From the IMG/VR virus record IMGVR_UViG_3300047558_000128, positions 1-61,155 of that record: a DNA stretch of 61,155 bases; one strand, given 5' to 3'. Both the position numbers and the translations under genes were made by a program. Of this stretch, positions 6,173 through 26,576 are shown in pieces (position 1 is the first letter of the stretch; the number at the start of each line of letters is the position of its first letter). This DNA comes from a virus. Below the pieces are notes generated by a model. The model was not told the DNA's origin. It saw nothing but the letters and a program-made list of their open reading frames with translations, and searched no databases.

Positions 6173-6619
6173 TTAGAGAAGTTCCATTACGGAGTTGTAG
6201 GTGGAAGCATTTACTTCCTCTTGCTGTGTCATCTTTAGAACCTTTAGGTTCTTCTTGAGCAAGTCCAACTTTGTGGTGTAGTCCCTACCAAAGTAAGTCT
6301 TCTCATTTGGTCGCTGTGGTTCTTCAGGTCGCTTAGGGAAACCAAGTGCCTCAGTATCAAACTCAACAGACACGCCATTGTAGCGGTAGTTGCCTGTTAC
6401 ACGAACAAGTGAGCCGTTCTCAGTTCCAATGTTGCTTGGGTCAGATAGTGCCTTGATAGCGTGAGCAATAACATCTTTCTCATACTGCTTTACATCAAGT
6501 TCATACTGCTTGCGAAGTCCAGAGTAGTTCTCAATGTCCTGCTCTACCTTTGCGATTTGTGCCTCAACCTCTGCGATTAGTGAAGCGGTTGGGATTTTGA
6601 CGGATAGTGATTTTGCCAT
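6173..6619 (-). CDS. Coiled-coil early protein
   Basis: 148 residues. Residues about 14-55 (AEVEAQIAKVEQDIENYSGL and on) and the C-terminal KLDLLKKNLKVLKMTQQEE look like coiled coil, flanking a central part with PKRPEEPQRPNEK. A purine-rich site precedes the ATG. Function unknown. Confidence 0.7.
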   Translation of the reverse strand: MAKSLSVKIPTASLIAEVEAQIAKVEQDIENYSGLRKQYELDVKQYEKDVIAHAIKALSDPSNIGTENGSLVRVTGNYRYNGVSVEFDTEALGFPKRPEEPQRPNEKTYFGRDYTTKLDLLKKNLKVLKMTQQEEVNASTYNSVMELL

Positions 6620-13421: not shown

Positions 13422-13427
13422 TATAAT
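13422..13427 (+). promoter_or_regulatory. TATAAT box, leaderless
   Basis: TATAATTATACTATC then ATG (13437): 9 nt between box and start. The same run TATAATTATACTA precedes the ATG at 33033. Confidence 0.6.
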
Positions 13428-13436
13428 TATACTATC

Positions 13437-13733
13437 ATGACAACCCTTCAAATAACAGAGATGATTATTGCGATTATGGTTTCTATTGGAACCTTTATTG
13501 GATTGTCAGCTGCAGGTGTCCGCTGGCTTGTCAAACATTACTTCAATGATATAAAGCATGAGCTAAAGCCAAATGGTGGATCAAGCTTAAAAGATCAAGT
13601 AAATCGAATGGAAAAGCAGCATCAGGAATTTAAAAACAGACTAGATGAAGCTGACTTGATGCGTAGAGATATGAATAAAAAAGTAGACAAGATGTATGAT
13701 CTACTTTTGGACTATATTGCTAATAAGAAGTAA
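13437..13733 (+). CDS. Small membrane protein, possible holin
   Basis: 98 residues: a membrane helix at about residues 8-31 (IIAIMVSIGTFIGLSAAGV), then HELKPNGGSSLKDQVNR and a coiled coil to the end. Membrane-anchored proteins with HELKPNGGSS.KDQ are frequent in actinophages and are sometimes annotated as holins. Here there is only one helix and no lysin next to it (the hydrolase lies at 17675), so holin is only a possibility. No ribosome binding site; the promoter is leaderless. Confidence 0.65.
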   Translation: MTTLQITEMIIAIMVSIGTFIGLSAAGVRWLVKHYFNDIKHELKPNGGSSLKDQVNRMEKQHQEFKNRLDEADLMRRDMNKKVDKMYDLLLDYIANKK

Positions 13734-13917
13734 TATATAATATATATAATATATATAAATATAAAGATATAAGATATATTCTACTTAGAGATATTATTTA
13801 ATATTTAATATATATAATAGTCTACCACAGAGTTCTATTCTTTGAGGCCAAAATTGATAAAATCTTTATAACATTTTTATAACTCTTTTTCAAAAAGTCC
13901 TTTTTGTGTAATTATGA

Positions 13918-13923
13918 TATAAT
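13918..13923 (+). promoter_or_regulatory. Extended -10 TGATATAAT of the small RNA
   Basis: TATAAT with TGA in front, ending 6 nt before the first base of the hairpin at 13930. No protein frame of note follows. Confidence 0.55.
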
Positions 13924-13929
13924 TTATAT

Positions 13930-13987
13930 GGCTAGTATCCAGGTCTGTCTCTCATACCCACCATGCCTGGATACTAGTCCTTTTTTT
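13930..13987 (+). ncRNA. Candidate small hairpin RNA
   Basis: GGCTAGTATCCAGG (13930-13943) pairs along 14 positions (one G-U) with CCTGGATACTAGTC (13966-13979), around a 22-nt loop, followed by TTTTTTT (13981-13987). The promoter box ends exactly one initiation distance before the stem, so the whole transcript would be this hairpin of about 58 nt. A plain terminator is the alternative, but no gene upstream reaches it without crossing the AT-rich repeat. Confidence 0.55.
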
Positions 13988-13999
13988 CATTTTATGATG

Positions 14000-14005
14000 T
14001 ATAAT
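14000..14005 (+). promoter_or_regulatory. TATAAT box, leaderless
   Basis: TATAATTATTATACT then ATG at 14015, 9 nt after the box. It starts the first tail-adhesin operon (14015 to about 17682). Confidence 0.6.
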
Positions 14006-14014
14006 TATTATACT

Positions 14015-14404
14015 ATGGCATCACTTTATGAACCCTCAACCTTTGGCTCAGACCCAGCCATTATTAAGTGGCAGGTCGTCCGTGGCGATACCGCCCAAGT
14101 TCGCATAGAATTTGTAGAAGTGGATGAGACCACTCCAATAGACACTTCTACTTGGACATATATTGCCAGTGCATATGATCCAAGGCTTGATACAATAGAT
14201 GAGCTTGATGTCACGCCAGGCAATGGTTTTGTGGTTGTTACAGCACCTGCAAATACTACAAAGCTATGGGGTGCAGGATACGGTTCTGTTATTGCCGAAC
14301 TTTTGTTCGATCTTCAGGTAACAAAACAGGACGGAACCATTTGGACACCAGTACTTGGAAACATTGTGGTTCTTGGTGATGTCACATACGGAGGAAGTTT
14401 ATGA
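14015..14404 (+). CDS. LtfC-like tail protein
   Basis: 129 residues, starting MASLYEPSTFGSDPAIIKWQ. The core VVRGDTAQVRIEFVE...TWTYIASAYDPR matches the LtfC/p132/Gp6 beta-sandwich domain of actinophage tails, in which a strand with RGD/KGD-type turn begins the fold. Paralogues lie at 15114 and 19005. It probably forms a baseplate or fibre attachment module. It overlaps the collagen-like gene by 4 nt (ATGA). Confidence 0.7.
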   Translation: MASLYEPSTFGSDPAIIKWQVVRGDTAQVRIEFVEVDETTPIDTSTWTYIASAYDPRLDTIDELDVTPGNGFVVVTAPANTTKLWGAGYGSVIAELLFDLQVTKQDGTIWTPVLGNIVVLGDVTYGGSL

Positions 14405-17199: not shown

Positions 17200-17682
17200 A
17201 TGCTAGGTTCATTTGGTTTATGGGCATCTTCCAAGGGTATGAAAACAGTTTCAAACCTTGTTGGGATGACTCGTACCGCTGCTAAAGCACAGATTGTAGC
17301 AGATGGACTTGTAGTAGGAACAGAAACTCCTCAGCAATTTACAAACTCTGCAGATGAATCAAAACACGACAAGATTGTTGATCAAACACCTGATGCAGGA
17401 GTGCAGGCTCAGTATGAATCTCCAGTAGATATCGTTTATGGAGTATTCAGCTTTAGCGTATTCGGTGTTTTTGGATTTGTTCCAGCATTCGGTGTTTTTG
17501 GATTTACACCAACATTTAACGTATTCAGCTTTACTGTATTTAACGTATTCAGCTTCGTTCCATTTTCAGTATTTGGCTTTTCATTCTCTGTATTTACATT
17601 TACGCCAACATTTGCTGTGTTTGGATTCTCATTTAGCGTATTTAGCTTTACCCCAACATTTGCTGTATTTGGTTTTAGATAG
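17200..17682 (+). CDS. PASTA-domain tail protein with VFGF repeats
   Basis: 160 residues. Residues about 15-80 form a PASTA domain (VSNLVGMTRTAAKAQIVADG ... VDQTPDAGVQ), a fold that in bacteria contacts cell-wall peptidoglycan. Residues 81-160 are an uncharged Phe-rich repeat (VFGFVPAFGVFGFTPTF and variants), ending AVFGFR. The same tail ends the Fn3 protein at 23744. A wall-binding adhesin is a fair guess; the role of the repeat is unknown. It overlaps the reverse hydrolase gene by 8 nt. Confidence 0.7.
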   Translation: MLGSFGLWASSKGMKTVSNLVGMTRTAAKAQIVADGLVVGTETPQQFTNSADESKHDKIVDQTPDAGVQAQYESPVDIVYGVFSFSVFGVFGFVPAFGVFGFTPTFNVFSFTVFNVFSFVPFSVFGFSFSVFTFTPTFAVFGFSFSVFSFTPTFAVFGFR

Positions 17683-23743: not shown

Positions 23744-24538
23744 ATGGCAGCAGGTAAAAGAGCAGGTAGACATGCTCAGCAGTCTAATGATTTTCTCCAG
23801 CCACTAGCACCAATTAACGTTGTTGCTACTGATGTTGGAACAAACAGAGCATACAATGATGGTGCTGCTTCTGTAGCGTTTGGGCTACCTGCTAACTCTC
23901 CAGCTGCTACTTCTTACACTGTTACAGCATCAACTGGTCAGACAGCCACTGGATCATCTTCTCCAATTGTTGTCTCTGGTATTGCTACAGGTACAACTCC
24001 AACATTCACTGTAACTGCAACAAACAGCTATGGCACATCTAGTGCATCTGCTGCATCATCTGCAATTACAATTACAACTGTTCCAGATGCCCCAACTGGT
24101 GTTAGTGCATCTTCTCCTTCTGGGGCAAACTACGACACAGTTACTTGGAATGCTCCAGCTAACGGTGGAAAAGCAATTACAAACTACTACGTAACATCTG
24201 ATGATGGAAAGACAGCAAATACATCTTCTACTTCTGTAAACATTACTCAGGAGCAGGGTACAGCTCAGACATATACAGTTTATGCAGATAATGCTAATGG
24301 TAGGTCTGCAGCTTCAGCTGCTTCTGGTAGCGTAACCACATTCTCATTCGTACCATTTTCGGTATTTAGCTTCTTTGGAGTGTTTAGCTTCTTTGGAGTA
24401 TTTGGGTTTGTGCCAACCTTTGGAGTGTTTGGATTCGTACCGTTCTCAGTATTTGGATTCTTTGGTGTATTCGGATTCGTACCATCATTTGGTGTGTTTG
24501 GGTTCACCCCATCATTTGCGGTATTTGGCTTCAGATAA
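23744..24538 (+). CDS. Fibronectin-type tail protein with VFGF repeats
   Basis: 264 residues. After a basic start (MAAGKRAGRHAQQS) come two Fn3-like domains (about residues 25-110 and 113-198, with VPDAPTGVSASSPSGANYDT and NYYVTSDDGKTAN). The last ~65 residues are the Phe-rich repeat FSFVPFSVFSFFGVFSFFGV and on, ending FAVFGFR, the same end as the PASTA protein at 17200. ACGAGGA precedes the ATG. Confidence 0.75.
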   Translation: MAAGKRAGRHAQQSNDFLQPLAPINVVATDVGTNRAYNDGAASVAFGLPANSPAATSYTVTASTGQTATGSSSPIVVSGIATGTTPTFTVTATNSYGTSSASAASSAITITTVPDAPTGVSASSPSGANYDTVTWNAPANGGKAITNYYVTSDDGKTANTSSTSVNITQEQGTAQTYTVYADNANGRSAASAASGSVTTFSFVPFSVFSFFGVFSFFGVFGFVPTFGVFGFVPFSVFGFFGVFGFVPSFGVFGFTPSFAVFGFR

Positions 24539-24567: not shown

Positions 24568-24595
24568 ATATACATACATAGAACGGAGTATGAGG

Positions 24596-25255
24596 ATGTA
24601 TAAGGATCAGACACCCCTTAGAAGTATCAGTAAGACTACACAGGGGCACAAATTTTTTGAACGTTATCTTGACAATGATCTAGATGTTTTGGCAAAAGAG
24701 CTACAGGCTAGATATGAGCTAATCGAACAAGCCAAGATTCCAGGGGTAACACCAGTAAGCCCATTTGAGGCATGGAAAGACTCTAACAGCATCTCAACAA
24801 TGAAGTGGAGACAGTACAATGTTTTCCAGTTCCACATTGATGGAATATATGAGCTATACAAGGCTGTTGGTGATATGGTTAGAGAAGCTTGTGAACATTA
24901 TGAGCTTGATTTTGAAGAACAAAAGTTTATGATTCAGGGATGGTTCAATATTAACCACTCTGGAAATGGAAAGCTTAACTGGCATGAACACGGTGGCCCA
25001 GGAGCACCTGATTTCCACGGATACTATTCAGTTGCAGCAGAGCCATCATCAACTCACTATATTGTTTTTGACAATGAGGTTGAAAATATTAATAAAAATA
25101 ACCGTGCAATTCTTTCTGAGATGGGGCATCCACATGCTATGGGTGATTGGGACTGGGATGGTCCAAGAATCACAGTTGCATACGATGTAACTCCACTAGA
25201 GTATCTTAAGCGTGGAGGATATTCACAAGAGCAGCATTGGATTCCATTGCGATGA
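24596..25255 (+). CDS. Oxygenase-like protein, tandem copy 1
   Basis: 219 residues from the ATG at 24596 (GGAG 7 nt upstream); ATG at 24590 is too close to that site. The C-terminal half has WHEHGGPGAPDFHGYYSVAA, then NRAILSEMGHPHAMG and PRITVAYD. Paired His clusters and an Arg are arranged as in 2-oxoglutarate/Fe(II) oxygenases, but the usual HxD is HEHGG here. Tandem homologues follow at 25252 and 25911. Classified as oxygenase-like by pattern only. Confidence 0.6.
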   Translation: MYKDQTPLRSISKTTQGHKFFERYLDNDLDVLAKELQARYELIEQAKIPGVTPVSPFEAWKDSNSISTMKWRQYNVFQFHIDGIYELYKAVGDMVREACEHYELDFEEQKFMIQGWFNINHSGNGKLNWHEHGGPGAPDFHGYYSVAAEPSSTHYIVFDNEVENINKNNRAILSEMGHPHAMGDWDWDGPRITVAYDVTPLEYLKRGGYSQEQHWIPLR

Positions 25256-25929
25256 TTGCGATGACTAAGCCACCACAGAAATTCTTTGAGAGGTATCTTG
25301 ATGTTACACAAGATGATCTAGATAGTCTTTATGATTTTTGTGTTGCTCGTGAAAAAGATATGCTTGACGGAAAGTTCCCAGGAATTGCATCAGAAGAAGC
25401 AAAGTCATATTACGAAAAGGGTGGTATGACTACTAGAACTCTGGGCAAGTATAATGTTTTTCAGCTACACCACCCAGTAATTAGAAAACTGCTTGGTGCT
25501 GTGAGAGATATGACAAAAGAGGCTTGTGAATATTATGGTACTGACTTTGAGTCAGAGGCATATTATATTCAGGGTTGGATTAATATAGAGCCAGCTGATC
25601 ATGGAGATGAAGAGTTTTATGCACAAACCATGATTGAGCCTAATTTGCATGAGCACTGTGGTGGGTTAGGAATCCCTGATCTTCATGGATATTTCTCTGT
25701 ATTTGCAGAGCCATCTGTAACTCATTATAGAATTGACAAGGTAACTCCATTTGAAAATATCAATAAAAACTTCAGAGCAGTACTTTCTGAAACTGGACAC
25801 CCACATACACGTGGATGGTGGGGTAATCATGATAAACGTAGAATTACAATAGCTTATGACACCAGAAGTATTCGTGACATTTCTGATGGAGATGCTGGAT
25901 TGGAACAACATTGGATACCGCTAGTATAG
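25252..25929 (+). CDS. Oxygenase-like protein, tandem copy 2
   Basis: 225 residues from the ATG at 25252, which overlaps the previous stop as ATGA; ATG at 25261 (MTKPPQKFFERYL) is an alternative. Homologous to copy 1 along its length: KFFERYLD, NVFQLHHP, LHEHCGGLGIPDLHGYFSVF, LSETGHPHTRG, RRITIAYD. It has an insertion near residue 115 (EPADHGDEEFYAQTM). Ends QHWIPLV like copy 1 (QHWIPLR). Confidence 0.6.
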   Translation: MIAMTKPPQKFFERYLDVTQDDLDSLYDFCVAREKDMLDGKFPGIASEEAKSYYEKGGMTTRTLGKYNVFQLHHPVIRKLLGAVRDMTKEACEYYGTDFESEAYYIQGWINIEPADHGDEEFYAQTMIEPNLHEHCGGLGIPDLHGYFSVFAEPSVTHYRIDKVTPFENINKNFRAVLSETGHPHTRGWWGNHDKRRITIAYDTRSIRDISDGDAGLEQHWIPLV

Positions 25930-26576
25930 TTAAAGAACATAAGTTCTTTACCAGAGATCTGTCAATAGACCTTTCAAGGCTATTAACTTGGACTATTGAT
26001 CTTGATGATAGAATCAGATCTGGTGAACTTGAAATTGGTGCAAGCAAAGAAATGCTTGATGTTTATAGAAATAGAACATCTGGTGCAGGAACTGCACTGC
26101 TTTCTCATTATAATATTTTTGAAATGGGAAATCCAGATCTAAACATTTTAAAAAATGCCATAAATAGTGCACTACTAGAGGCTTGCGAGTATTACGGAAT
26201 TGATTATGATTCTGAAGAATGGTATCTCCATGGTTGGTATAACAGAAATGATAAGGATGGCATGTGGGATGTTTCTCCTATTGACAACGAGGACAAGTGG
26301 CATGAACACATGAATGGTGTTGGTGCACCAGTGTTTCATGGTTACTACTGCGTAAATGCAGAGCCGTCTGTAACTGTATACAAGATTTTTAAGAACCCTG
26401 AAAATATCAAGGTAAATGTAAACAAAAACAATAGAATGGTTCTATCAGAGGTTGGACATCCACATGGCATGGGTAACTGGAGAGTAGATGATCAAAGAAT
26501 TACCTTAGCGTATGATGTGGCTCCCAGGGCATACATTAGTGATGAAGATGCTCAAACATGGACAAGGCTTAACTAA
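25911..26576 (+). CDS. Oxygenase-like protein, tandem copy 3
   Basis: 221 residues. No ATG is available near the start of homology (KEHKFFTRDLSIDL), so the TTG at 25911, inside the end of copy 2, is the best start. Conserved: KWHEHMNGVGAPVFHGYYCV, VLSEVGHPHGMG, QRITLAYD. It ends differently (DAQTWTRLN) from copies 1 and 2. Confidence 0.6.
   Translation: MDTASIVKEHKFFTRDLSIDLSRLLTWTIDLDDRIRSGELEIGASKEMLDVYRNRTSGAGTALLSHYNIFEMGNPDLNILKNAINSALLEACEYYGIDYDSEEWYLHGWYNRNDKDGMWDVSPIDNEDKWHEHMNGVGAPVFHGYYCVNAEPSVTVYKIFKNPENIKVNVNKNNRMVLSEVGHPHGMGNWRVDDQRITLAYDVAPRAYISDEDAQTWTRLN

Follow-up and report, generated by a model that had tools for sequence, protein, structure and literature searches.

The window analysed here is the whole of a 61,155-nucleotide stretch of viral DNA (positions 1 to 61,155 of IMG/VR record IMGVR_UViG_3300047558_000128). 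The locus under study begins with a gene for a 98-aa protein, which is followed by an AT-rich block with TTTATAAC repeats, a promoter (P1), a hairpin, a second promoter (P2), a probably leaderless gene of about 129 codons, and a collagen-like tail gene (Table 1). The 98-aa protein is possibly holin-like, judging from its sequence. Both neighbouring genes have a TATAAT hexamer 8–9 nt ahead of the ATG (13423-13437 and 14000-14015), and the mRNAs of both are probably leaderless. In most members of the family described below, P2 is located 2–12 nt past the hairpin. The AT-rich repeat is located at approximately 13734-13820. The conserved AT-rich block contains TATATAATATATA, and in relatives CTTATATATATTTAAGTATACAC; the TTTATAAC repeats follow, one helical turn apart, and may be the site of a regulator. 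The AT-rich block and the TTTATAAC repeats are also kept in relatives without the hairpin RNA, and the GC-skew minimum of the window, at 12-14 kb, coincides with them, the region 13734-13883 being a possible replication origin or regulator site. Elsewhere in the window, three consecutive and mutually similar genes of about 220 codons are found at 24590-26576 in the structural region, apparently as a tandem duplication, and the structural genes at 17200-17682 and 23744-24538 have terminal repeats of the type VFGFxPxFxVFxF.

Table 1. Positions in the window of the hairpin, its promoter and the neighbouring features.
Feature	Coordinates	Strand	Remarks
Gene for 98-aa protein, hydrophobic N-terminus	13437..13733	+	syntenic upstream neighbour
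Two TTTATAAC repeats	13865..13883	.	ahead of P1, spacing 11 bp; conserved in relatives
P1, extended -10, TGATATAAT	13915..13923	+	hexamer 13918-13923; no clear -35
Stem, 5' arm, GGCTAGTATCCAGG	13930..13943	+	base pairing, covariation
Loop, 22 nt	13944-13965	+	
Conserved loop section, TGTCTCTCATACCCACC	13946..13962	+	ATACCCAC is the most constrained part
Stem, 3' arm, CCTGGATACTAGTC	13966..13979	+	base pairing, covariation
U tract, seven T	13981..13987	+	predicted intrinsic terminator for the hairpin RNA
P2, -10 of the next gene	14000..14005	+	ATG at 14015
Gene for 129-aa protein (phrog_1084)	14015..14404	+	head of the tail operon, syntenic

A preliminary description of this DNA had placed at this locus a hairpin with a 14-bp stem, a 22-nt loop and seven T, between an AT-rich repeat and a leaderless promoter at 14000, and all of these elements are present. 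One of the 14 pairs of the stem is a G-U pair, and 6 nt separate the -10 hexamer from the stem, the base of which, at 13930, is the probable transcription start. The predicted 58-nt RNA folds with -24.9 kcal/mol, compared to -9.1 +/- 2.45 kcal/mol for 200 dinucleotide shuffles, none of which is equally stable (z = -6.45). When both strands of the window were scanned for TATA(A/C)T with a long stem within about 10 nt, the hairpin at 13915-13987 was the single site. The hairpin of the window lies in an open frame that runs into the next gene (13904-14404), but a coding function was rejected, as stops are found there in other members, for example L006. The Rfam covariance models gave zero matches in the window and in eight diverse relatives, and no earlier description of the hairpin RNA was found in the open-access literature. 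The predicted RNA is a member of a family of small phage RNAs without a counterpart in Rfam.

The exact 17-mer of the loop, TGTCTCTCATACCCACC, is found in at least 119 viral stretches (scan of viral_contigs), in nearly all of which the hairpin stands behind TGNTATAMT. In a cellular collection of 257 Gb it is present in only 10 scattered stretches, none with the promoter-hairpin architecture, and a search of cultured phages and plasmids gave no convincing match. In L044 and L114 the 17-mer has another context, a short stem and a weak model score, and is there probably due to chance. In 40 whole records one strong copy was found in each, except in G035 where the sole match is weak; the additional rows of this search either repeat the same site on the opposite strand or are weak. 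Since the 17-mer scan fixes the loop, a second sample was chosen by homology to the downstream protein, with the hairpin ignored. The hairpin is present in 76 of the best 80 homologues, all close to the gene from hairpin-bearing phages, so that this number is not the frequency in the whole group; it corresponds to 76 of 79 testable loci, as three (L326, L333, L335) have no hairpin and the locus of L336 is cut by the contig end. A capsid-based sample has the hairpin in 3 of 27 records, most of them too short to reach the locus, and two records that do reach it, L277 and L275, are without the family hairpin. Via homologues of the flanking genes, the same locus arrangement was traced to progressively more distant phages. 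The promoter-hairpin cassette is also found in another phage context, in L141 (near 1763-1827, - strand) and L152 (near 6322-6387, + strand), downstream of large proteins, apparently tail proteins of the LamG type, and with a second small inverted repeat, AGTCTTGACCGCCAATAGACT, replacing P2.

The members of the family have a common layout, with TGNTATAMT, a stem of 13–17 bp, a loop of mostly 15–20 nt and a U tract. In the sample picked via the downstream protein, TGNTATAMT is present in all 76 hairpin-bearing loci; the distance from the end of the -10 to the stem is 5–8 nt in 67 of the 75 loci scored, and a U tract (five or more T among 8 nt where the stem ends) is found in 74 of the 75. The sequence of the stem is variable, and each of the 13 pairs tested is altered on both sides with pairing retained. 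The proportion of paired stem cells is 95.7%, compared to 81.8% in shuffles and at most 49.6% when slid, and the covariation score of the stem is 0.637 against 0.341 in shuffles; the first sequence set had 14 of 17 stem pairs covarying. L006, L008, L009 and L010 have both sides of the stem altered and the loop kept. The stems have many G-U and few A-C pairs, in agreement with an RNA of the + strand, that of the hairpin. At the corresponding position L277 carries a plain terminator, with neither promoter nor loop motif, L275 has no hairpin, and L326, L333 and L335 are without both hairpin and promoter. In L333, what looks like a decayed copy of the hairpin lies some 50 nt ahead of position 801, with TGATATAGTATA and then a weak inverted repeat of A and T only, without the loop motif. 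The spacing kept between promoter, stem and U tract, the covariation, and the absence together of promoter and hairpin strongly support the proposal of the preliminary description that the locus would give a self-contained RNA.

The loop contains ATACCCAC, identical in 52 of 52 aligned members (an alignment that left out two more divergent ones, L327 and L348), and has the consensus UG, a pyrimidine tract and (C)AUACCCAC(C). The canonical core is present in 41 of the 76 sampled hairpins; most of the other loops have a pyrimidine tract of different length and C/U content, and a few differ in the last bases. A comparison of stem and loop in relatives had been proposed at the outset, and its outcome, stem letters that change freely while always pairing and a loop core that stays nearly constant, indicates that the loop must do something important and supports it as the functional part of the predicted RNA.

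The nearest cultured relatives of the capsid protein are those of Streptomyces phages, with about 43% identity. The low G+C content and the abundance of these phages suggest a freshwater actinobacterial host, and the phage of the window probably infects such bacteria. As stand-ins for the host, 16 complete genomes of about 1.2-1.5 Mb from the same class were used, which from their size and base composition should be Nanopelagicales.

The loop had been suggested as an antisense contact site, with a search for complementarity to phage and host mRNAs as the check, and a trans-acting RNA whose loop pairs with specific mRNAs of host or phage would agree with a loop that is single-stranded, rich in pyrimidines and carried by a stable stem, a design known from antisense RNAs, and with the C/U exchanges in the tract, which would retain pairing with G. 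In 6C RNA and RsaE of Gram-positive bacteria, too, a stable stem carries a single-stranded loop rich in C; the hairpin RNA apparently differs from these in its loop sequence, and it belongs to a phage gene. Against such pairing, a conserved complement of the loop was found neither in 395 Actinomycetes genomes (up to 2 mismatches), nor in the 16 complete stand-in genomes of about 1.3 Mb (wobble and one mismatch), nor in 28 phage records (3 mismatches), where additional matches came at the control rate, and the phage start sites show no recurrent target. At translation starts, compared in two genomes of 1.2 Mb each with 882 orthologous pairs, the loop pairs no better than 60 shuffled loops. The only good candidate, the dnaA start GGGTGGGTAGATG, pairs well in one genome and is not conserved in related genomes. 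Changes in the length of the tract also fit pairing poorly. A specific antisense target is thus not supported, and we consider this explanation rather improbable; a long specific contact is unlikely if the genomes searched resemble the host, a result that does not extend to short seeds.

Further contacts were rejected as well. The loop shows no preference for host ribosome-binding regions or translation starts beyond base composition, and a mimic of the anti-Shine-Dalgarno sequence is not supported, as the difference for the loop (-1.05) is close to that of shuffles (-1.21 +/- 0.36) and the true anti-SD gives -2.14. The 23S rRNA (L261-L267) has partial complementarity to the loop over 8-12 nt, TGGTGGGTA, and TGGGTAGGAGAG with one mismatch, and GGGTATG in the tRNA-Gln (CTG) of two genomes is complementary to it. 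These matches are conserved, but were judged to lie within chance for the length searched, and the loop variants do not all preserve them.

In another reading, the hairpin has the sole role of an intrinsic terminator, halting read-through from the 98-aa gene and insulating the P2 operon. This would agree with the stem, which is long, contains G+C and in nearly all members runs into U, and with the plain terminator that L277 has at this place. Like Rho-independent terminators, the hairpin has a stem and then a U tract ending the transcription unit, but it differs from them in the fixed upstream promoter, the invariant loop core and a loop that is longer than usual. Neither the promoter nor an invariant loop is required for termination, but ATACCCAC is fixed in the 52 members; all 76 have the extended -10 at a fixed distance ahead, the relatives that lack the loop motif also lack the promoter, and the U tract is poor in some members (L010, L085). 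The presence or absence of promoter and hairpin together argues against a mere terminator, which we find unlikely. The hairpin and its U tract could also act as terminator for the upstream gene.

It is still less probable that the hairpin acts in cis, with a factor bound to the loop deciding between a stop at the U tract and continued transcription into the tail operon, in the manner of an attenuator or of put. The put element of phage HK022, one of the promoter-proximal RNA elements known in phages, is a structured RNA that opens a phage transcript and suppresses terminators in cis. The hairpin would similarly open a transcript, and in most members it directly precedes a structural operon. 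However, the hairpin RNA ends in its own U tract, the operon has the separate promoter P2 close behind with a leaderless start, and L141 and L152 carry the cassette without P2 and in their other context. That the RNA primes or regulates replication at an origin unwound in the AT-rich block seems very improbable, as the skew change that coincides with the conserved block and repeats also coincides with a switch of gene strand, relatives without the RNA keep the block, the RNA is located elsewhere in L141 and L152, and the RNA-dependent prophage origins of cluster A mycobacteriophages, likewise actinophage RNAs without an ORF, comprise several hundred nt beside parABS in extrachromosomally replicating prophages (PMC7157519), with no shared feature found in the RNA of about 58 nt beside tail genes, even if an AT-rich region adjoins it here.

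The explanation that we favour, and hold to be fairly probable, is a free-standing phage small-RNA gene in which the stem is a scaffold and the fixed loop meets a conserved partner in the host. RNA polymerase would start at the stem base, 6 nt past the extended -10, copy the 14-bp hairpin and end at the U tract, so that the product would be about 58 nt long. The letters of the stem may vary provided that they pair, and the single-stranded loop UG-Y(n)-CAUACCCACC would be the active part, which a partner shared by the hosts would recognise in trans. The family itself, its covariation, the constraint on the loop and the fact that promoter and hairpin are present or absent together are results of the sequence analysis; that the RNA is transcribed and acts in trans, and what kind of partner it has, we infer. 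The variable pyrimidine tract and the missing complement tilt the choice of partner towards a protein, or towards a stable RNA contacted over a short structured region, either being more likely than a long antisense match. More tentatively, the new family, which would be common in a large group of probably freshwater actinophages, might be a small decoy that uses UG-Y(n)-CAUACCCACC to capture or mimic a ligand of a conserved host component; an RNA-binding protein, a nuclease or the transcription or translation machinery would be candidates, as tentative as the decoy itself.

Trans-acting small RNAs of phages and prophages are known, such as 24B_1, IsrK, AgvB, SprY and DicF (reviewed in PMC12197685), which like the hairpin RNA are short non-coding phage genes with their own promoter and terminator. 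Those belong to enterobacterial or staphylococcal phages and have in several cases identified RNA targets, whereas the hairpin RNA shares no sequence with them, and the searches for its target found none.

Public viral contigs contain many related phages, with at least 597 relatives by capsid, and the probable hosts, freshwater actinobacteria, are abundant bacteria whose infection biology is little known. The covariance model and the loop consensus can be used for searches of metatranscriptomes and for pull-down. An RNA that is so small, conserved and common points to one constant contact in the host.
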